A DNA stretch of 40,641 nt from Deltaproteobacteria bacterium (GCA_021372395.1 JAJFUP010000081.1:1-40641); one strand, 5' to 3'. Numbered from the stretch's first letter, positions 24,743 to 35,583 are shown. The notes: generated from the sequence alone by a model not told the origin. Numbers and translations: made by a program.

Positions 24743-24815
24743 GAGCCAGTAGCTCAGTTGGTAGAGCATCGGACTTTTAATCCGGTGGTCGAGGGTTCGA
24801 GTCCCTCCTGGCTCA
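24743..24815 (+). tRNA. tRNA-Lys (anticodon UUU)
   Basis: The acceptor arms GAGCCAG and CTGGCTC pair over 7 bases (24743-24749 with 24808-24814). The D arm GCTCAGTTGGTAGAGC is standard. The anticodon loop CTTTTAA carries TTT at 24776-24778. The T arm is GAGGG-TTCGAGT-CCCTC and the discriminator is A. CCA is not encoded. Confidence 0.97.
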
Positions 24816-24821
24816 CTGAAA

Positions 24822-24899
24822 GTCCCCATCGTCTAGCCTGGCCCAGGACACCGGCCTTTCACGCCGGCGACAGGGGTTCAAATCCCCTTGGGGACGCCA
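24822..24899 (+). tRNA. tRNA-Glu (anticodon UUC)
   Basis: GTCCCCA (24822-24828) pairs with TGGGGAC (24889-24895), followed by G and an encoded CCA (24897-24899). The anticodon stem CCGGC/GCCGG encloses CTTTCAC with anticodon TTC at 24858-24860. The T arm is AGGGG-TTCAAAT-CCCCT. It lies six bases after tRNA-Lys, so the two are probably one transcript. Confidence 0.97.
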
Positions 24900-25188: not shown

Positions 25189-25623
25189 ATGACAGACCAG
25201 CCAAAAGACAACATCAAGAACGCAGATCAGACTGACAAGGCACCTGACGCACCCATTACCAGGAGAGATGCCATCAAGCGGATCTCCAAGGTGGTGATTG
25301 CCTCCGGTGCGGTGGCATCCATCCCCGGCCTGTTCGCATCAAAGGCCTCTGCCGAGGACACAGAGTACAGCAATTACTGCAATTACACCAACTATGCGGA
25401 CTACACCAATTATGCGAACCAGAAGTACGGGAACTACACTGCCTACGGCAACTACAAGAATGTCGCGAACTATGCAAACTACTATAACAAGGGCACGGGG
25501 AATTACCTGAACTATGCCAACTACACCAACTGGCAGGACTACATAAACTACACGAATTACGGGGATTACGCGAATTACACGAACTACACGAATTACGCGA
25601 ATTACGCGAACCACTGCAAGTAA
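25189..25623 (+). CDS. Tat-exported Asn-Tyr-x repeat protein, candidate RiPP precursor
   Basis: This 144-residue protein has two parts. Residues 1-55 are a long Tat signal: a charged start, TRRDAIKRISK with the Arg pair at 25-26, a hydrophobic stretch (VVIASGAVASIPGLFA) and a cleavage-like ASA at 53-55. Residues 56-144 consist almost wholly of Asn-Tyr-x triplets: 24 Tyr, 22 Asn and 23 [Tyr/Trp]-x-[Asn/Asp] motifs, 12 of them in unbroken register at 106-141. One repeat uses Trp (W115-Q-D117). Cys occur only at 64 and 143, near the ends of the repeat. AAGAAGG five bases before the ATG is a good ribosome site. Radical SAM genes follow immediately, so I infer a modified peptide substrate. A structural or adhesive surface protein is the alternative. 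I know of no named family with this repeat. Confidence 0.8.
   Translation: MTDQPKDNIKNADQTDKAPDAPITRRDAIKRISKVVIASGAVASIPGLFASKASAEDTEYSNYCNYTNYADYTNYANQKYGNYTAYGNYKNVANYANYYNKGTGNYLNYANYTNWQDYINYTNYGDYANYTNYTNYANYANHCK
25356..25620 (+). repeat. Degenerate 9-base tandem repeat encoding Asn-Tyr-Ala/Thr
   Basis: The unit is roughly AAYTAYRCS, read as Asn-Tyr-(Ala/Thr). It is repeated with synonymous variation throughout the 3' two-thirds of the gene. The tightest run is 25506-25612. Third-position differences (AAC/AAT, TAC/TAT) between units show that the protein sequence, not the DNA, is being conserved. Confidence 0.85.
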
Positions 25624-25666: not shown

Positions 25667-26665
25667 ATGGCGAATTTGCTGCTGACCACGAGATGTGTCC
25701 GTTCCTGTCCGTACTGCTTTGCCAAGAACGAGATGGCCGAGTCCGATCCGAATGATACCGTGTCGTGGGAGAACATCGTATACCTGGCAGACTTTCTCAT
25801 ACAGTCCGATGATCGCCACCTCGCACTGCTGGGTGGAGAGCCGACGCTCCATCCGCAGTTCGTTGATATCGTGCTCTACCTGCTCCAGAGGGGGCTCCAC
25901 GTCACCATCTTCACCAGCGGTGTGATGTCTGGCGAGCGGCTCGGGGAACTCGAGCGCCACCTCACGCAGATCTCCCCGGACAGGATCCAGTTCGTGTGCA
26001 ATCTCAACAATCCGGAACAAACTCCAGCGCCAGGAGGTGAACATGAGAAGCTGCACCGGTTCCTCACCACCCTGGGCCCCTGGACAACGCCGGGATTCAA
26101 CATCTACAGAACGGATTTCGACCTCGCCTTCATCTTCGAGTACATCTCCCGCTTCGGGATGCAGGGGCAGTTGCGTCTCGGCCTCGCGAGCCCCATCGCC
26201 AGGCAGGACAACCTGTACATCGGCAAGCAGGACATGAAAGGCGTCATCGACAGGCTCTACGGTTTCCGGCATCTCTTCGAGAGGTTCAGGGTGAGACCCA
26301 ACCTCGACTGCGGGTTCCCGCTCTGCTTCTTCTCGGACGAGCAGCTCGGGTGGTTCTTCCGCATGACGGGCACGGTGAACTTCGGCTGCGGGCCGGCCAT
26401 CGACATAAAGCCCAACATGGATGTGTACAGCTGTTTCCCTCTTTCCACCATCCACAAGAGGTCGCTCTATGAGTTCAACTCCATCCAGGAGGTCGCTGCC
26501 TTCTACATCGGCCTTCACGACCAGATACGCCAGGATTTCCCCGGTGCGTTCGAGGAGTGCGTCCCCTGCATCTTCCGGAACGAGAACCGCTGCTCCGGTG
26601 GTGGCGTATGCCACATACTGAGACAGGTTGCCGATGAAACCGCCGATCCTCGTCTGTCCGTATAA
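25667..26665 (+). CDS. Radical SAM/SPASM-like peptide maturase
   Basis: This 332-residue protein starts MANLLLTTRCVRSCPYCFAKNEM, with the cluster motif C10-x3-C14-x2-C17. LLGGEPTLHP (GGEP at about 56-59) is the SAM-binding turn of radical SAM enzymes. The C-terminal third has extra cysteines (NLDCGFPLC, FGCGP, VYSCFP and then C298, C301, C309, C315), a SPASM-like pattern that in peptide maturases binds auxiliary iron-sulphur clusters. It lies 43 bases after the repeat-protein gene, which suggests that protein is its substrate. It overlaps the next gene by 32 bases. The ribosome site is weak, so translation may depend on the upstream gene. The chemistry is not shown by sequence; cross-linking of the Tyr-x-Asn repeats is inferred. 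Confidence 0.85.
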   Translation: MANLLLTTRCVRSCPYCFAKNEMAESDPNDTVSWENIVYLADFLIQSDDRHLALLGGEPTLHPQFVDIVLYLLQRGLHVTIFTSGVMSGERLGELERHLTQISPDRIQFVCNLNNPEQTPAPGGEHEKLHRFLTTLGPWTTPGFNIYRTDFDLAFIFEYISRFGMQGQLRLGLASPIARQDNLYIGKQDMKGVIDRLYGFRHLFERFRVRPNLDCGFPLCFFSDEQLGWFFRMTGTVNFGCGPAIDIKPNMDVYSCFPLSTIHKRSLYEFNSIQEVAAFYIGLHDQIRQDFPGAFEECVPCIFRNENRCSGGGVCHILRQVADETADPRLSV

Positions 26666-27500
26666 TCGTTTGCTGCTCGATCAGATCGGCGGTCATGATA
26701 TCGTCGTCAGGGTCGAGAACCCCCCGGACATCCCCCGGGCAGCCGAAGATGTCCGATGCTCGGGCAAGGCCCTGCACAGCGTCATCATCGAGACCCGGCA
26801 GCCGCTGAGCGCTTTCCGCCCCCAGGACGACTGGGTCGGCATCCCCATCGCATTGTTCGTGCCCGGGATGGGCAACTTCCGGGATGTCGCCCCCTGGGTC
26901 GGAAGCATCCGGGACCTCAAGATGCACGTGTACCTGTCTGCCGGCGACAGGGAAAACCTCACCAGTTGCCGTGTTCTTGCATCCCTGGGAGTCACCTGCT
27001 GTCTCGTCTTCGACACCACGGAGCCGGATTGGGAGGCCCTTTCGGATCTTATGACCTGGGCCGTCTTCGCTCCCTCCTCCCATGCCCCCGTCGAACCTTT
27101 CCATCACGTTGCCGTCCATCACAATCCCGGCGCCTACGTTGATTGGGGAGTGGTCTATTTCGATGGGCCGGGGGCCTTTCTCCATCTGGATTCGGCCGGC
27201 CGGGTGGCCCTGTCTCACCGGGAGCTTCAAAACGGCTCGTTCATCACGGAACATGTGTCCCTGCTGGGCGATCCCTTCGAGAACGAGGGATATCGAAACG
27301 CCTTGAACGCCTGGCGGCACTATTTTCTGAGTGATCATCCCTGCATCGCGTGCGAGGGATGGAAGATCTGCATGGGAAGATTCGGCATGAACGGGAGGCA
27401 TGCCCCGGGATGCCGGGCCTTTGCTTCAGACATGTTGGCCGAGATAGAACAATACAAAGGCCGGCAGCAGGAAGAACAGGCAGAGAGGGCACCTTCATGA
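26634..27500 (+). CDS. Radical-SAM-like protein without the SAM-cluster motif, SPASM-like tail
   Basis: The 288-residue protein has no CxxxCxxC motif, but its last 75 residues resemble a SPASM region: HLDSAGRVAL, VSLLGDPFENEGYRNALNAWRHYFL, and then CIACEGWKICMGRF and a final GC. The first 200 residues show alternating beta and alpha segments, like a degenerate barrel (VVRVENPPD, SVIIETRQPL, MHVYLSAGDRENL, CCLVFDTTEPDW). I infer a non-catalytic partner of the two radical SAM enzymes, perhaps for substrate recognition. Homology to a known family is not certain. ATG 26634 has AGACAGG seven bases before it; TTG 26628 is an alternative. Its stop overlaps the next ATG (ATGA at 27497-27500). Confidence 0.65.
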   Translation: MKPPILVCPYNRLLLDQIGGHDIVVRVENPPDIPRAAEDVRCSGKALHSVIIETRQPLSAFRPQDDWVGIPIALFVPGMGNFRDVAPWVGSIRDLKMHVYLSAGDRENLTSCRVLASLGVTCCLVFDTTEPDWEALSDLMTWAVFAPSSHAPVEPFHHVAVHHNPGAYVDWGVVYFDGPGAFLHLDSAGRVALSHRELQNGSFITEHVSLLGDPFENEGYRNALNAWRHYFLSDHPCIACEGWKICMGRFGMNGRHAPGCRAFASDMLAEIEQYKGRQQEEQAERAPS

Positions 27501-29563
27501 AAACCATCATCTTCAAGGCAACCGACCTGTGCAATTCCAACTGCATCTATTGCCACGCGATCAGAAAAGACCCGCACGCCATAAAGACGATGCCCCTGGA
27601 CATTCTCGAGCAGTTCTTTGCGAGAGCGAACGCCTTTCTCATGGAACAGCCCGAAGAGACCCTGAAGATCATCTGGCACGGCGGGGAGCCGCTGATGCTC
27701 GGACCCGATTATTTCTCCCGGGCACTGGAGTTCAAGGAGGATCTCTGCAGGGACACAGGTTCGCGCATATCCTTCGACATGCAGAGCAACCTCACCCTGT
27801 TCTCCCGGGAGTATGTGGATGTCTTCCAGCGGATGGGAATCAGGACCATAGGCACCAGTTTCGAGCTGCTGCCCGGGGTCCGGGGACGTGGAGGCAAGGA
27901 AGGCTCGGATATCTACAACCGGCAGTTCATTCGGGCAGTCTCGTTGCTGGAGCATGAAGGGCTCTCGTGGGGGATCATCTATGTGGTGACCAGGCCCTCG
28001 CTGAAAAACCCCCTCGAACTGTTCCGCACCCTGACCAACTTCGTCCCCTCCTCCTCGGTCATGTTCAACCCCGTCACCTTTCACAAGGCAGGGCCCGACC
28101 AGATAGCCATATCCCCTGAGGAATTCGTGGATTTCCTCGGCGAGATCTTTCCCGAGTGGTGGTGCAAACGGGAGAGGTATCAAGGTGTAGACCCCTTCCA
28201 TTCCCTGACAGACAACCTCATGAAAGGCGGCGAGTCGCTCTTGTGCGTCGACTCGGGCAGATGCGCCGACACGCATCTCTGCGTGAGCCCAGACGGCATG
28301 GCCTGGCAGTGCGGGAGATCCGCCGACTGGGACCTGATGAGGTATGGATCGATCGTGGATCTTTCCCTCAAGGAGATCCTGGAACACCCTGACAAGGAGA
28401 TGCTGAGAACGAGACCCCGGGTATTGAAAGACGGCGAGTGCAGCGGCTGCCGTTTCTGGGACATCTGCCACGGCGGTTGCCCGCTGGATGCCCTTGCAGA
28501 GACCGGGTCCATCATGCATAAATCCCCGTGGTGCGGGACGAAGAAAGGGTTCATCGAAAAGTATTTCGAGCCCATCACGGGCTTCAGGTACCCATCGCCT
28601 GTCCTGCAGTATGGAGAACCGGGAACCGGACACAACGAGGCAACCGCCGTGCCCTCTGTCGCGTCATGTCCCCCGGGCTGCTCCACCGGAATACGCACGC
28701 AGGATGATGCGCCATGGATAGGGCCCGTCGAATGCATGGACGATGCCTTGATGGTATCCGGGATATTGAACCAGCTTGTCGAAGAAAACCCTTCGAAGAG
28801 ATTCAACCTGGTTTTCAGAGCGAGCTACCGGGAGATCTTTCAGGGGCACCCCGCCATCTCTGAATTCGGCCTGCCGCCCCAGGGAACAACACCGATCCGC
28901 TTGAGCTGCCGCAGCAATGGGGATATTCCCTCTCCTTCCACGAGCGCCTACCAGCTTCTGGCCGGCCTGCTCGGGTTGAAAACTCCTGCAGCAGAAGAGC
29001 TTTTTGTTCCCTGGAAGTTCGAGGATGATCCATCTCTCCTCGAATCCATCCCGTGGAGAAAGCCCAATATCCTCATCTGTCCCTTCTCCGAAACACCAAG
29101 AACGCGGATTGATATCCGTACATGGGAAGAGCTTGCGGCGAGACTGATCGTCGATGGTTTCGGTGTCATGCAGCTGGCAAACATGCGGCAGCCTCATATA
29201 CGTGGCGCCTACAGCATACGCGGGCTGCTCGATGTGAGACGGATGATATCTTTCGTGCGTCACTTCGATCTGGTCATCACATCGAACAATATGTTCATGC
29301 ACATTGCCCGACTCCACGAGATACCTGCCCTCGTGCTGTGGGGACCGAGCGATCACGGCTTCTACGGCTATACCGGCCACTCCCATCTTCAGGGCAAGAG
29401 GACATGCGCGAATGCAGGAGGCTGCATCGGGCCCCTGACGGATGGCCGCCTCTCCTCCCCATGTCCCATGGGGGATGATCACTGCATGAACACATTGAAA
29501 GCAGAAGCGATCTATCAGGCTGCCCTTGAAATAGCCGGGACGCCGACCTCTTCAGGAAGGTGA
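27497..29563 (+). CDS. Fusion: radical SAM/SPASM maturase with C-terminal GT9 glycosyltransferase domain
   Basis: The 688-residue protein joins two enzymes. Residues 1-360 are radical SAM/SPASM: C12-x3-C16-x2-C19 in DLCNSNCIYCHA, GGEP at 62-65, and a C-terminal cysteine set (LLCVDSGRC, HLCVSPDG, WQCGRSAD, ECSGCRFWDICHGGCPLDAL, PWCGTK). Residues about 405-685 resemble GT9 heptosyltransferases: MDDALMVSGILNQLVEENP at the N-lobe, then a C-lobe with DLVITSNNMFMHIARLHEIPALVLWGPSD. In GT9 proteins the usual SnD position before the HxA motif is Asp; here it is Asn. The ATG at 27497 overlaps the previous stop, with GAGAGGG upstream; a frame opening at 27350 is an unlikely start. I infer modification plus glycosylation of the repeat peptide. 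Confidence 0.82.
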   Translation: MKTIIFKATDLCNSNCIYCHAIRKDPHAIKTMPLDILEQFFARANAFLMEQPEETLKIIWHGGEPLMLGPDYFSRALEFKEDLCRDTGSRISFDMQSNLTLFSREYVDVFQRMGIRTIGTSFELLPGVRGRGGKEGSDIYNRQFIRAVSLLEHEGLSWGIIYVVTRPSLKNPLELFRTLTNFVPSSSVMFNPVTFHKAGPDQIAISPEEFVDFLGEIFPEWWCKRERYQGVDPFHSLTDNLMKGGESLLCVDSGRCADTHLCVSPDGMAWQCGRSADWDLMRYGSIVDLSLKEILEHPDKEMLRTRPRVLKDGECSGCRFWDICHGGCPLDALAETGSIMHKSPWCGTKKGFIEKYFEPITGFRYPSPVLQYGEPGTGHNEATAVPSVASCPPGCSTGIRTQDDAPWIGPVECMDDALMVSGILNQLVEENPSKRFNLVFRASYREIFQGHPAISEFGLPPQGTTPIRLSCRSNGDIPSPSTSAYQLLAGLLGLKTPAAEELFVPWKFEDDPSLLESIPWRKPNILICPFSETPRTRIDIRTWEELAARLIVDGFGVMQLANMRQPHIRGAYSIRGLLDVRRMISFVRHFDLVITSNNMFMHIARLHEIPALVLWGPSDHGFYGYTGHSHLQGKRTCANAGGCIGPLTDGRLSSPCPMGDDHCMNTLKAEAIYQAALEIAGTPTSSGR

Positions 29564-31564: not shown

Positions 31565-33268
31565 ATGGCAAACGAGCGTATTGGTGAGCAGCTGATTAAG
31601 AATGCCCTCATTACCCCGGAACAGCTTCTCGAGGCCCAGAAGGCCCAGAAGGTTTCCGGTACCAGGCTGGGGTCCCAGCTCGTGAAGCTCGGACACTTAT
31701 CCGAGGAACAGCTCGTGGATTTCCTGGGTAAACAGTATCGTCTCCCCTCGGTCATCATGAGGAACAAGAACCCTGATCCCGAGGTGGTAAAGCTCATCCC
31801 GCTCAATGTGGTCCAGAAATACCATGCCATCCCCTTCGAACGGAACGGGTCAACGCTGAAGGTTGCCATGACCGACCCGGCGAACATATTCGCGGTAGAC
31901 GACCTCAAGTTCCTCACCGGATACGCCATTGAAGTTTATGTCACCTCCGAAGATTCCCTGAAATGGGCGATCGACAACTTCTACGATCAATCCGCGTCCC
32001 TGGACGACGCCTTGAGCAGCATGGAGGACATGCAGGGGGCCGTAGAGGTGTCATCCGAAGGCGACGATATCGCTGTAGGAGATCTGGAGAGAGAGGCGGA
32101 CCAGGCACCGGTCATCAAGCTCGTGAACCTCACCCTCGTGGATGCGATCAAGAAGGGCGTGAGCGACATCCATGTCGAGCCCTACGAGAAATTCCTGCGG
32201 ATCAGATTCAGGATGGACGGCATGCTCTATGAGGCCATGAAGCCTCCGTTGCGCCTGAAAAACGCCATGGTCTCGAGGCTCAAGATCATGGCCAAGCTCG
32301 ACATCGCCGAACGGAGACTTCCCCAGGACGGCCGGATAAAGCTCAAGATCCAGGGCGGCAAGGAGGTGGAGTTTCGCGTATCCGTAATGCCCACCCTCTA
32401 CGGCGAAAAGGTGGTCTTGAGAATTCTGGACAAGTCCAATCTGCAGCTCGACATGACCAAACTCGGGTTCGAGGAGGAGGCCCTGGCTCGGTTCAAGGAC
32501 TCCATCTACAAGCCGTGGGGAATGGTGCTCGTCACGGGTCCCACAGGCTCTGGAAAGACCACGACCCTCTACTCGGCACTTTCCGAACTGAACAAGATGG
32601 ACAGCAACATCTCCACTGCGGAGGATCCCGTGGAATTCAACCTCCCGGGTGTAAACCAGGTCCAGATGCACGAGGAGATCGGGCTCACCTTTGCCACTGC
32701 GCTGAGATCCTTCCTCAGGCAGGACCCGGACATCATCCTCGTGGGCGAGATCCGTGACTTCGAGACTGCGGAGATCGGTATCAAGGCGGCACTCACCGGC
32801 CACCTCGTACTCTCGACAATCCACACCAACGATGCGCCATCAACCGTGAACAGGCTCCTCAACATGGGGATCGAGCCCTTCCTGGTCGCATCGTCCGTGA
32901 ACCTGATCGTGGCCCAGAGGCTCTCACGGAAGATCTGCCCCCATTGCAAGACAAGAGACGACGCCTCGAAGGAGACGCTCATCCAGATGGGGATGGATCC
33001 CGAGACAGCCGGCAGGGTCGAGTGTTTGGTGGGAAAAGGGTGCCCGGCATGCGGAAACTCAGGATTCAAAGGGAGGATAGCCCTTTACGAGGTCATGCCG
33101 GTAACCGAGGAGATTCGGGAATTGATCCTCATGGGCGCATCTGCTTCCGAGATCAAAAACCAGGCAATAAGTCAGGGAATGAAGACCCTGCGGCAGAGTG
33201 GCCTCACCAAGATCACCGAGGGTATTACCTCGGTTTCCGAGATCTTGAGAACCACCATGGCCGATTAA
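31565..33268 (+). CDS. pilB: Type IV pilus assembly ATPase PilB
   Basis: PilB powers pilus extension. The 567-residue protein has an N-terminal GspE/PilB domain (IGEQLIKNALITPEQLLEAQKAQ; KQYRLPSV; LIPLNVVQKYHAIPFERNG). Next come SDIHVEPYEKFLRIRFRMDG and Walker A GPTGSGKTT at about 325-333. The Asp and Walker boxes are AEDPVEF and ILVGEIRDFETAEIG. A four-cysteine zinc site follows (ICPHCK ... GCPACGNSGFKGR). Length and domain order are typical. AGGAAGGTGAG precedes the ATG. pilT and pilC follow with short gaps. Confidence 0.95.
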   Translation: MANERIGEQLIKNALITPEQLLEAQKAQKVSGTRLGSQLVKLGHLSEEQLVDFLGKQYRLPSVIMRNKNPDPEVVKLIPLNVVQKYHAIPFERNGSTLKVAMTDPANIFAVDDLKFLTGYAIEVYVTSEDSLKWAIDNFYDQSASLDDALSSMEDMQGAVEVSSEGDDIAVGDLEREADQAPVIKLVNLTLVDAIKKGVSDIHVEPYEKFLRIRFRMDGMLYEAMKPPLRLKNAMVSRLKIMAKLDIAERRLPQDGRIKLKIQGGKEVEFRVSVMPTLYGEKVVLRILDKSNLQLDMTKLGFEEEALARFKDSIYKPWGMVLVTGPTGSGKTTTLYSALSELNKMDSNISTAEDPVEFNLPGVNQVQMHEEIGLTFATALRSFLRQDPDIILVGEIRDFETAEIGIKAALTGHLVLSTIHTNDAPSTVNRLLNMGIEPFLVASSVNLIVAQRLSRKICPHCKTRDDASKETLIQMGMDPETAGRVECLVGKGCPACGNSGFKGRIALYEVMPVTEEIRELILMGASASEIKNQAISQGMKTLRQSGLTKITEGITSVSEILRTTMAD

Positions 33269-33282
33269 GAGGAGGTGCTTTT

Positions 33283-34386
33283 TTGGAACAATCAATCTAT
33301 GATCTGCTCAAGACGATGGTGGAAAAAGGCGCCTCGGACCTCCATATCACGACGGGGTCATCCCCGCAGGTACGGGTTCGAGGACAGCTCTATCCCCTCG
33401 ATGCCCCGCAGCTTGACCCCAAATCAACGAGAGAGCTCCTTTACTCGGTGCTCACCGAAACCCAGAAGCACAAGTTCGAGGAGGAACAGGAACTCGACCT
33501 CTCCTTCGGCATCAAGGGGGTGGCACGCTTCAGGGCAAACCTCTTCATCCAGAGGGGAGCACTGGCAGGCGTGTTCAGGATGATACCCTTCGAAGTCCTG
33601 CCACTTGACAGCCTCGGGCTTCCCCCGATTGTCGCCAAGCTGACATCCCTGCCCCGGGGGCTGATCCTGGTGACCGGACCCACCGGGTGCGGCAAATCCA
33701 CCACGTTGGCCGCTTTCCTCGACAAGATCAACACCGAGCGACACGACCATATCGTCACCATCGAAGATCCCATCGAGTTCGTACACAAGCACAAGGGGTG
33801 TCTCGTCAACCAGAGGGAAATCGGCGCCGATACCAGGAGTTTTGTGACCGCGCTCAAGTATATCCTGCGTCAGGATCCCGACGTGGTTTTCATCGGCGAG
33901 ATGCGCGACCTTGAAACCATCCAGGCAGCGCTCACCATCTCAGAGACAGGTCACCTCGTGTTTGCCACCCTGCATACCAACTCGGCGGTCCAGACGGTGA
34001 ACCGCGTGGTGGATGCCTTCCCGGCACATCAGCAGTCACAGGTAAGGGCTCAGCTTGCCTTTGTCCTGGAGGCAGTCATTGCCCAGCAGCTCATCCCGAA
34101 GTTGGACGGTAAAGGCAGGATGCTCTCCGCAGAGGTCATGATATCGACCCCGGCAATACGGAACCTCATCAGAGAAGACAAGATCCACCAGATATATTCA
34201 CAGATGCAGGTAGGACAGACCAAGCATGGGATGCAGACCATGAACCAGTCTCTGCTGAACCTCTACACACGCAAATTCATATCCCTGGACGACGCCCTTG
34301 GCCGGTCCATGGATCCTGATGAACTGAGACAGATGATGTCTTCCCCCGGCCAGCACAGGAATGTGTCCGGGGTTGAGAGGAGATAA
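33283..34386 (+). CDS. pilT: Type IV pilus retraction ATPase PilT
   Basis: PilT drives pilus retraction and twitching. The 367-residue protein starts at TTG 33283, seven bases after GGAGG, giving the standard opening IYDLLKTMVEKGASDLHITTGSSPQVRV. It has LILVTGPTGCGKSTTLAAFLD (Walker A near 132), IEDPIEF, LRQDPDVVFIGEMRDLETIQAAL, and the PilT-specific C-terminal segments AVQTVNRVVDAFPAHQQ and GMQTMNQSLL. An upstream frame from 32944 lies inside pilB and is not the start. Only 14 bases separate it from pilB. Confidence 0.94.
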   Translation: MEQSIYDLLKTMVEKGASDLHITTGSSPQVRVRGQLYPLDAPQLDPKSTRELLYSVLTETQKHKFEEEQELDLSFGIKGVARFRANLFIQRGALAGVFRMIPFEVLPLDSLGLPPIVAKLTSLPRGLILVTGPTGCGKSTTLAAFLDKINTERHDHIVTIEDPIEFVHKHKGCLVNQREIGADTRSFVTALKYILRQDPDVVFIGEMRDLETIQAALTISETGHLVFATLHTNSAVQTVNRVVDAFPAHQQSQVRAQLAFVLEAVIAQQLIPKLDGKGRMLSAEVMISTPAIRNLIREDKIHQIYSQMQVGQTKHGMQTMNQSLLNLYTRKFISLDDALGRSMDPDELRQMMSSPGQHRNVSGVERR

Positions 34387-34389
34387 CCC

Positions 34390-35583
34390 ATGTCAGTTTT
34401 CGTTTGGGAAGGAAAACTTGCCAACGGCAGCATGAAGAAGGGCGAGATCGAGGCATCCGACAAGGCTGCGGCAGCCATGCTCCTGAAGCGCCAGAGGATC
34501 GTCCCCACAAAGCTTAAATCCAAGCCGAAAGACATCAACCTCTTCGCGAAGAAGATAAAGACCAAGGACCTCGTCGTTTTCACCAGGCAGTTCTCCACTA
34601 TGATAAGCGCCGGTCTGCCGCTGGTCCAGTGTCTTGACATCCTTTCATCCCAGCAGCCCAACCCCGCATTCAAGAAGGTGCTCACCCAGATCAAACAGGA
34701 CGTGGAGGGAGGAAGCACCTTTGCGGACGCTCTTGCGAAGCACCCCAAGGTCTTCGACAGCCTCTTCGTGAACCTCGTCGCCGCCGGTGAGGTGGGTGGT
34801 GTGCTCGACACGGTCTTGAACCGCCTTGCGACGTATATGGAAAAGAACGAGAACCTCAAGAACAAGATTAAAAGTGCCATGACCTACCCCATCATCGTGC
34901 TCTGCGTTGCCTTCGGCGTTGTAGCGATACTCATGATCTTCGTGATACCCACCTTCCAGGACATGTTCACCCAGTTCGGCTCGGCGCTTCCGGGACCCAC
35001 CCAGTTCGTGGTGAACCTGAGCAATTTTTTCCGGGGGTACTGGTATGTAATGATCGGTGTCATCATCCTGCTCATAGCCGGGTCCAAGCAGCTGAGGAAA
35101 CATCCGAAGGGCAGGTTTCATATGGACAAGCTGGCCCTGAAGCTGCCGATATTCGGCCCTCTCCTCCGTAAGGTTGCTGTTGCCAAGTTCACGAGGACAC
35201 TGGGCACGATGATCTCGTCTGGTGTTCCCATCATGGACGGCCTGGATATCACCGCGAAGTCGGCCGGTAATGTGATCGTGGAAAATGCCATACGGGCCGT
35301 GAGGTCCGCCATCAGCGAAGGCAAGTCCATGTCCGAACCGCTTGAACAGACGGGCATCTTCCCGGGCATGGTCGTGCAGATGATCTCAGTCGGAGAGGCA
35401 ACAGGTGCCATGGATCAGATGCTGGGAAAGATCGCCGACTTCTACGACGAAGAGGTCGATACGGCCGTAGACACCCTCACCTCCGCCCTGGAGCCCATGC
35501 TCATGGTCTTCCTCGGAGGCATCGTGGGTTTCGTGGTCGTGGCCATGTATCTGCCCATCTTCAAGATGGCACAAAACGTATAG
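34390..35583 (+). CDS. pilC: Type IV pilus inner-membrane platform protein PilC
   Basis: PilC is the membrane platform that couples PilB or PilT to the growing pilus. The 397-residue protein begins FVWEGKLANGSMKKGEIEASD and has two tandem GspF domains: FTRQFSTMISAGLPLVQCLDIL (about 60) and FTRTLGTMISSGVPIMDGLDIT (about 275). Three hydrophobic membrane segments are seen, near 165-185, 215-235 and 365-390. It ends VAMYLPIFKMAQNV, the standard C-terminus. It follows pilT by 3 bases and closes the pilBTC group with a strong terminator. Confidence 0.95.
   Translation: MSVFVWEGKLANGSMKKGEIEASDKAAAAMLLKRQRIVPTKLKSKPKDINLFAKKIKTKDLVVFTRQFSTMISAGLPLVQCLDILSSQQPNPAFKKVLTQIKQDVEGGSTFADALAKHPKVFDSLFVNLVAAGEVGGVLDTVLNRLATYMEKNENLKNKIKSAMTYPIIVLCVAFGVVAILMIFVIPTFQDMFTQFGSALPGPTQFVVNLSNFFRGYWYVMIGVIILLIAGSKQLRKHPKGRFHMDKLALKLPIFGPLLRKVAVAKFTRTLGTMISSGVPIMDGLDITAKSAGNVIVENAIRAVRSAISEGKSMSEPLEQTGIFPGMVVQMISVGEATGAMDQMLGKIADFYDEEVDTAVDTLTSALEPMLMVFLGGIVGFVVVAMYLPIFKMAQNV

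Follow-up and report, generated by a model that had tools for sequence, protein, structure and literature searches.

A radical SAM/SPASM-GT9 fusion protein in a tyrosine-repeat peptide cassette of a deltaproteobacterium

We analyzed a 40,641-nucleotide stretch of DNA from a Deltaproteobacteria bacterium (GCA_021372395.1, JAJFUP010000081.1), hereafter the window, and found that one of its genes, gene D, encodes a real fusion of a radical SAM/SPASM half with a GT9-type glycosyltransferase half, apparently an undescribed enzyme design. Gene D closes a translationally coupled cassette of four genes on one strand (A-B-C-D), in which gene A encodes a tyrosine-repeat precursor with a twin-arginine translocation (Tat)-type leader. 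We propose that D cross-links Tyr to the residue two positions on (i+2) in this precursor and that, ahead of Tat export, its GT9 domain attaches sugar to it as well, a reading to which we give somewhat less than an even chance; judged from the sequence, such a cross-link-then-glycosylate activity of D is plausible. An earlier sequence-only reading of the window had anticipated the fusion, the GT-B fold and the link to an NY-repeat protein, all of which held, but its framing of GT9 enzymes chiefly in terms of lipopolysaccharide (LPS) and its inference from an Asn in the donor site call for revision.

Gene D encodes a full-length radical SAM/SPASM-GT9 fusion

The features of gene D, in window coordinates, are as follows.

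27497..29563, plus strand: gene D, radical SAM/SPASM-GT9 fusion, 688 residues (open reading frame, Pfam, NCBIfam, relatives)
27530..27553, plus strand: radical SAM 4Fe-4S motif, C12-N-S-N-C16-I-Y-C19 (motif reading)
28244..28534, plus strand: SPASM domain, residues 250-346, complete canonical cysteine set (TIGR04085, pattern match)
28592..28708, plus strand: linker, residues 366-404, hardly conserved (ratio of nonsynonymous to synonymous substitution, dN/dS, ~0.73, window versus the relative G011)
28697..29560, plus strand: GT9 domain, predicted GT-B fold, the 401-688 segment used for modeling and searches (Pfam, AlphaFold, structure comparison)
28742..28744, plus strand: D416, counterpart of the WaaC catalytic base D13, Asp in all five cassette GT9 domains compared (alignment)
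29285..29287, plus strand: N597, aligned with D261 of WaaC, a heptose O3 contact (alignment; role of D261 from PMC3559599)
29300..29302, plus strand: H602, aligned with H266 of WaaC, His in four of five cassette copies (alignment)

The reading frame starts with ATG and ends with TGA, in agreement with the coordinates and frame first proposed for it, and it encodes a radical SAM/SPASM half (residues 1-365), a linker (366-404) and a GT9 domain (405-688). The CX3CX2C motif is present (C12-C16-C19), and D scored 38.9 bits with the Pfam model Radical_SAM PF04055 (cut-off, 29.5). The SPASM region was examined with the cysteine pattern CX9-15GX4C-gap-CX2CX5CX3C-gap-C, which D matches exactly at residues 256-346 (C256-X10-G-X4-C272, C315-X2-C318-X5-C324-X3-C328 and C346). 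The NCBIfam SPASM model TIGR04085 was passed with 42.6 bits (cut-off, 27), and Pfam SPASM PF13186 gave 21.4 bits against a cut-off of 21.5. The intact radical SAM cluster and SPASM cysteines that the sequence-only reading had placed in residues 1-360 are thus present. Comparison of the window with G011 gave a dN/dS of ~0.19 for the radical SAM half and 0.30 for the GT9 domain, a rough estimate with synonymous changes close to saturation; set against the value for the linker, these indicate that both halves are under purifying selection and the linker hardly so.

We then consider the second half. The Pfam model Glyco_transf_9 PF01075 (cut-off, 22) was passed with 23.7 bits by the whole of D and 26.4 bits by the domain, and each of the three aligned members matched it. 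With 20 sequences as input, AlphaFold modeled residues 401-688 with a predicted local distance difference test score (pLDDT) of 88 and a predicted template modeling score of 0.88; a model of the entire fusion with three sequences had a pLDDT of 40 and was not used. The domain model matched the solved GT9 enzymes (3tov, WaaF, TibC and WaaC) at Z scores of 18.9-21.7, with individual scores of 21.7 for 3tov, 21.2 for 1psw, 20.5 for TibC and 19.4 for WaaC. The next folds were a chloroplast NDH subunit (Z 16.5), which itself resembles GT9 profiles, and other GT-B enzymes (Z of 12.8 or less). These results, obtained by the profile search and structure prediction that had been suggested as a check, place the predicted fold closest to GT9 structures and confirm by computation that the second half of D is GT9-type with a GT-B fold.

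The same full-length fusion was found in G011, which belongs to the same family (66% identical to D), in G054 of another family (47%) and in G091. A fourth relative, G154, has a fusion interrupted by the contig end, in which the SPASM region and GT9 remain in one frame. In all, at least five genomes from two families of the phylum carry the fusion, downstream of A/B/C wherever the contig permits, and a search for it beside Tyr-repeat proteins in other genomes, which the sequence-only reading had recommended, was therefore successful. That reading had also named a frameshift or an assembly join of two genes as what would overturn it. The window does come from a draft genome of 306 contigs; however, the same architecture occurs in four other assemblies, in diverged sequence and free of stops and frameshifts, so the fusion is not an assembly or sequencing artefact, an explanation that is already refuted and whose probability we regard as practically nil. 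Plasmid and viral searches returned radical SAM relatives only and not the fusion. No radical SAM-GT9 enzyme was found in the open-access literature searched, which lies largely outside subscription papers, so the novelty of the fusion is provisional.

Gene D is the last gene of a four-gene peptide cassette

The other cassette genes are as follows.

25189..25623, plus strand: gene A, 144-residue Tat-type precursor with TRRDAIKRI in the leader and 24 Tyr and 1 Trp in the core (open reading frame, triad counts)
25667..26665, plus strand: gene B, stand-alone radical SAM protein, 332 residues, SPASM-like C-terminal cysteines (PF04055, 51.3 bits)
26634..27500, plus strand: gene C, 288-residue SPASM remnant, overlapping the end of B (conserved cysteines, G134 relative)

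The presence of gene A in the same cassette as D supports the suspected link to an NY-repeat protein. All 25 aromatic residues of A lie in Y/W-x-[N/D/A/K] triads, with Asn at i+2 in 20 of them, and Tyr pairs at a lag of three residues number 18, compared with 5.9 in shuffled sequences (none of 2000 shuffles was as high). Gene A is 71-72% identical to its counterparts in G011 and in UBA4054, a Syntrophaceae bacterium that is the nearest named relative and by which the host is probably Syntrophaceae-like as well; the Tat model TIGR01409 gave 12.2 bits, under its cut-off of 16.7. The sequence-only reading had left out the second radical SAM gene (B) and the SPASM remnant (C). The family motif of B is CVRSCPYC in seven of nine rows and CNRNCPYC in two. 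Gene C lacks CX3CX2C and conserves CX2CX5C and one more Cys; C itself had no Pfam or NCBIfam match, its relative in G134 matched TIGR04085 weakly (E 1.9e-4), and GeoRSP models had no match among the relatives of C. D begins at ATGA, the final 4 bases of C.

The A-B-C-D order recurs in UBA4054, G011, G054 (with two copies of A) and G091. The order is A-B-C-D-D2-GT9 in G097, A-B-D-C without GT9 in G385, and B-D-C-GT9-GT9 in G134, where there is no obvious A and no Tyr-repeat precursor was recognized adjoining the cassette. Promoter and terminator scans gave results at chance level. Genes for tRNA-Lys and tRNA-Glu lie directly upstream (window 24743-24899), tRNA genes being a common kind of insertion site, and type IV pilus-type genes (T2SSE, T2SSF) lie downstream (window 31565-35583). 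In G054 (L018:5089-6379), G091 (L025:9647-10960) and G154 (L094:375-1673) the fusion is followed by a gene called by eye as Lgt-like (prolipoprotein diacylglyceryl transferase) and a short conserved protein. The precursors of these three genomes have a Cys close to the expected Tat cleavage site, and with the Lgt-like neighbor this makes their lipidation conceivable.

Precursor triads resemble triceptide cross-linking motifs

The triads are Y-x-N in the window, UBA4054 and G011; Y-T-N, Y-G-A, Y-V-N and Y-G-K in G385; Y-S-R, Y-Y-N and Y-F-R in G054; Y-Y-N and Y-G-D with a period of 7 in G091; and Y-x-S with a period of 4 in G097. The third residue (X3) is thus N, D, S, R, K or A. In the triceptide cross-links proven so far, Trp, Phe, Tyr or His is bonded to an Asn, Asp, Arg, Ser or Ala at i+2 (PMC11002830). 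Gene A, with every aromatic residue in an aromatic-x-X3 triad beside a SPASM radical SAM gene, has the form expected of a triceptide precursor, although this agreement is a motif match only. The lag-3 test was strong in the window, UBA4054, G011, G385 and the longer G054 copy, and moderate in the shorter G054 copy and G154.

We compared D with the NCBIfam equivalog models (scores and cut-offs in bits). It fell below those of the cyclophane maturases AmcB (84/425), YhhB (68/445), GrrM/OscB (64/310), FxsB (60/370) and XyeB (51/450), of the daropeptide maturases DynA (138/450) and DarE (107/650), and of the GeoRSP radical SAM model TIGR04303 (31/400). Its best scores were with DynA (138 bits), anaerobic sulfatase maturase (132 bits) and DarE (107 bits); that enzymes cross-linking peptides rank at the top, if alongside sulfatase maturases, speaks for a cross-linking role.

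Cassette GT9 domains have a divergent active site

Five cassette GT9 domains, from the window, G011, G054, G091 and G097, were aligned; residues at each position are given in that order and rest on a low-identity sequence alignment, not an inspected superposition. The other four are 37-59% identical to the window domain, which is 11-19% identical to 13 ordinary GT9s of the phylum and two G134 genes, and the N-lobe (acceptor side) of the cassette domains is ~60-70 residues shorter than in ordinary GT9s. By sequence, the cassette GT9s form one set.

The key residues of WaaC are D13, K192, E222, D261 and H266, of which only D13 and H266 are universal among the enzymes compared (PMC3559599). Both have equivalents in the window, D416 and H602; the H266 column reads H, H, Y, H, H. 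The sequence-only reading had seen Asn in place of the usual Asp in the motif SNNMFMHIA (residues 596-604), and N597 does align with D261; its suggestion that this marks an inactive enzyme or a new donor was weakened, since the column varies among orthologues (N, H, D, A, D) and WahF, which has Ser instead of D261, is still active (PMC3559599). Stronger signs of an altered donor site are the K192 column (T, A, M, K, K), in which the Lys is lost in three of five copies, and the E222-bearing stretch, which is deleted in all five and replaced by a short segment with an invariant I-R-x-A. Together with W-G-P-x-x-H and H-x-Q, this segment makes up a new set of invariants.

The window has NNMFMH in place of the D(T/S)(G/A)XXH signature of LPS heptosyltransferases I/II/III, Thr at the K192 column and no E222 region, and the best NCBIfam LPS heptosyltransferase equivalog gave 12 bits against a cut-off of 569. 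From the comparison of active site and N-lobe we conclude that LPS is probably not the acceptor and that an unusual donor is conceivable. Nor do GT9 enzymes build LPS only: TibC/AAH, which share this fold, are protein O-heptosyltransferases (PMC4358343), so peptide glycosylation by a GT9 has a precedent.

The cassette-type GT9 was found only in genomes with the peptide cassette

A survey of 395 genomes drawn from the phylum found the gene C profile in six genomes, one of them weak, and relatives of gene B in 14 (at E 1e-25). The cassette-type GT9 profile matched six genomes at E < 1e-128 and then none better than 4e-17; because all six also carry gene B and are followed by this gap, the cassette-type GT9 was, among the genomes surveyed, found only where the peptide cassette occurs. 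The G154 cassette is divided between two contigs cut at their ends, a small one with A and B and another with the fusion.

The UBA4054 cassette (L016:5705-9116) has the same order as the window and 61-77% identity to it. Its D, 77% identical to window D, stops at residue 371 and lacks GT9; an unrelated gene follows after ~140 bases, making this a natural version minus the sugar domain, and two ordinary GT9 genes lie elsewhere in the genome. A concatenated B+C+D tree recovered the window/UBA4054/G011 and G134/G385 groups at 100/100 and did not give the branching order inside the former, so the simplest reading, though not a proven one, is that UBA4054 lost its GT9. A D tree with distant outgroups was poorly resolved. 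In G097 (L026:8461-10438) D2, a radical SAM paralogue with a broken SPASM set, runs 20 bases into a stand-alone GT9 gene; the pair is either a split fusion or a pre-fusion state. G134 (L027:7727-9799) has a pair of stand-alone GT9-type genes, which belong to another lineage and share 16% and 11% identity with the window domain. We read the sequences as suggesting one GT9 recruitment ancestral to the window, G054, G091 and G097 lineages and a separate one in G134, where the GT9s of another lineage behind B, D and C indicate that GT9 was drawn to such cassettes at least twice.

On a Thiodictyon plasmid (L099:2573-8650), a B-like radical SAM gene has PqqD-family, YcaO and TfuA genes as neighbors, pointing to a wider role of the B family in peptide modification. 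A Chloroflexota plasmid (Chlorohelix, L098:4339-10898) may hold a distant cassette outside the phylum: a B relative (32%) lies there beside two more radical SAM genes and small hypothetical proteins.

Proposed mechanism and alternative explanations

We propose that A-B-C-D makes a ribosomally encoded, modified and exported peptide. Gene A would be the substrate, with its Tat leader and core of Tyr-x-X3 triads, and we hold the pairing of A with D strongly. The radical SAM/SPASM half of D would form repeated C-C bonds from the Tyr ring to the beta carbon of the i+2 residue, giving a chain of three-residue cyclophanes (triceptide-like); B is probably a second radical enzyme, and C might present the substrate. 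The fused GT9 would then add a sugar, for which ADP-heptose is the simplest donor, to hydroxyls of the peptide, the fusion keeping both activities on one repetitive substrate, and the folded, modified product would leave through Tat. Computation shows the cassette, the fusion, the GT-B fold, purifying selection, the Tyr-x-X3 pattern and the retained catalytic Asp; the steps built on these are inferred. Our confidence is moderate for the cyclophane chemistry and for glycosylation of A, fair for Tat export, and weak for the sugar donor and acceptor residue. ADP-heptose kinase (RfaE domain I) is encoded in all nine genomes tested. The Tyr hydroxyl is our first guess as the acceptor because no other hydroxyl is plentiful in all of the GT9-associated precursors. 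We also considered a Thr/Ser rule for the acceptor and saw none: UBA4054 lacks GT9 and keeps Thr, and G091 has GT9 and a core devoid of Thr.

Several findings weigh against the proposal. D passes no equivalog cut-off; the lag-3 test was negative in G091 and G097, though their Tyr-x-N/D/S triads are kept; the donor contacts are eroded at K192 and E222; and UBA4054, without a cassette GT9, has a precursor still 71% identical to that of the window, which means that the sugar is either not required or has no part in shaping the precursor. The last two also favor a GT9 that is no longer a glycosyltransferase and instead binds or presents the precursor or organizes a B-C-D complex, leaving the product cross-linked and unglycosylated: equivalents of K192, D261 and H266 are each lost in at least one copy, the region of E222 (a ribose contact) is gone throughout, and the GT9 half evolves faster than the radical SAM half. 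However, the catalytic Asp is invariant in all five copies, the new invariants resemble a re-tuned site more than decay, the dN/dS of the domain is low, and WahF shows that D261 can be spared, and we therefore consider an inactive domain unlikely, if a genuine contender.

The radical SAM halves could also act on the Tyr repeats in other ways, for example by ether or C-N cross-linking (darobactin, dynobactin), Ser/Cys oxidation (sulfatase maturation) or Tyr oxidation, and glycosylation may still follow. The scores with DynA, sulfatase maturase and DarE exceed those with the cyclophane families (51-84 bits), and two radical SAM genes make more than one reaction likely; but precursor cores have few or no Cys and the window core almost no Ser, which argues against a sulfatase-type reaction, and the Tyr-x-X3 pattern with its predominant Asn fits i to i+2 cross-linking; we consider other chemistry unlikely. 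Most GT9 enzymes build LPS and the genome makes ADP-heptose, so the GT9 half might serve the cell envelope (LPS or another glycan) and be joined to the peptide enzyme only genetically. This is very improbable, given that the host has two further GT9 genes of ordinary type whose family scores (103-105 bits) are far above that of D, that the cassette type was found only in genomes with the peptide cassette and has a shortened acceptor side, and that a separate GT9 gene sits inside the G097 cassette.

Comparison with known systems and significance

D, C and the cassette fall outside all named families; the cassette is most like a triceptide system plus a protein glycosyltransferase. The triceptide systems (XncB, OscB, YxdB, YhhB, HaaB) likewise have a radical SAM/SPASM gene beside an aromatic-x-X3 peptide, with known links of Tyr to Asp, Tyr to Arg, Trp to Asn and Phe to Ser (PMC11002830). 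D lies below the equivalog cut-offs of every cyclophane maturase model matched, so we do not file it as a member; a triceptide system with a second radical SAM, a SPASM remnant, a Tat leader and a fused GT9 was not described in the literature searched. The DynA and DarE profiles, closest to D together with anaerobic sulfatase maturase, span nearly the whole radical SAM/SPASM half, but their systems have antibiotic precursors rather than Tyr-repeat Tat peptides and lack a GT9.

The window GT9 shares with the bacterial autotransporter heptosyltransferases (BAHT) TibC/AAH the GT9-type fold (TibC, Z 20.5 over 271 residues), a short N-lobe, C-terminal cysteines and the catalytic Asp, but it is only 13-16% identical to them and lacks the N-terminal beta-barrel, and no BAHT model was matched in the NCBIfam search. 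The four C-terminal cysteines were considered as a TibC-like iron finger and discarded as evidence of kinship, being shared by ordinary LPS-type GT9s of the phylum. With WaaC/WaaF it shares the Pfam GT9 match, the GT-B fold and the catalytic Asp and His, but differs in its shortened N-lobe, missing E222 region and changed K192 and D261 equivalents. In mycofactocin synthesis, unlike in D, the radical SAM enzyme MftC and the glycosyltransferase MftF are encoded in separate genes, and MftF belongs to an unrelated glycosyltransferase family and acts on a small cofactor, not a repeat peptide. Like the proposed product, mycofactocin is a glycosylated radical-SAM-derived peptide product (PMC7491314).

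Radical SAM/SPASM peptide maturases and GT9-type protein heptosyltransferases are already known, and no cassette protein passes the cut-off of a named family of ribosomally synthesized and post-translationally modified peptides. If active, D would bring C-C cross-linking together with glycosylation on a single repeat peptide and extend the range of GT9 acceptors. The related cassettes, with a fused GT9 (window, G011), a separate one (G097) or none (UBA4054, G385), allow comparison and make the contribution of the GT9 half a directly testable question. A fuller version, in which bifunctional D forms Tyr cyclophanes and glycosylates Tyr of the Tat-exported repeat peptide to give a rigid, sugar-coated polycyclophane filament or surface coat in these presumed anaerobes, is on the unlikely side; if true, it would be the first glycosylated triceptide-like polymer and D the first radical SAM-GT9 enzyme.

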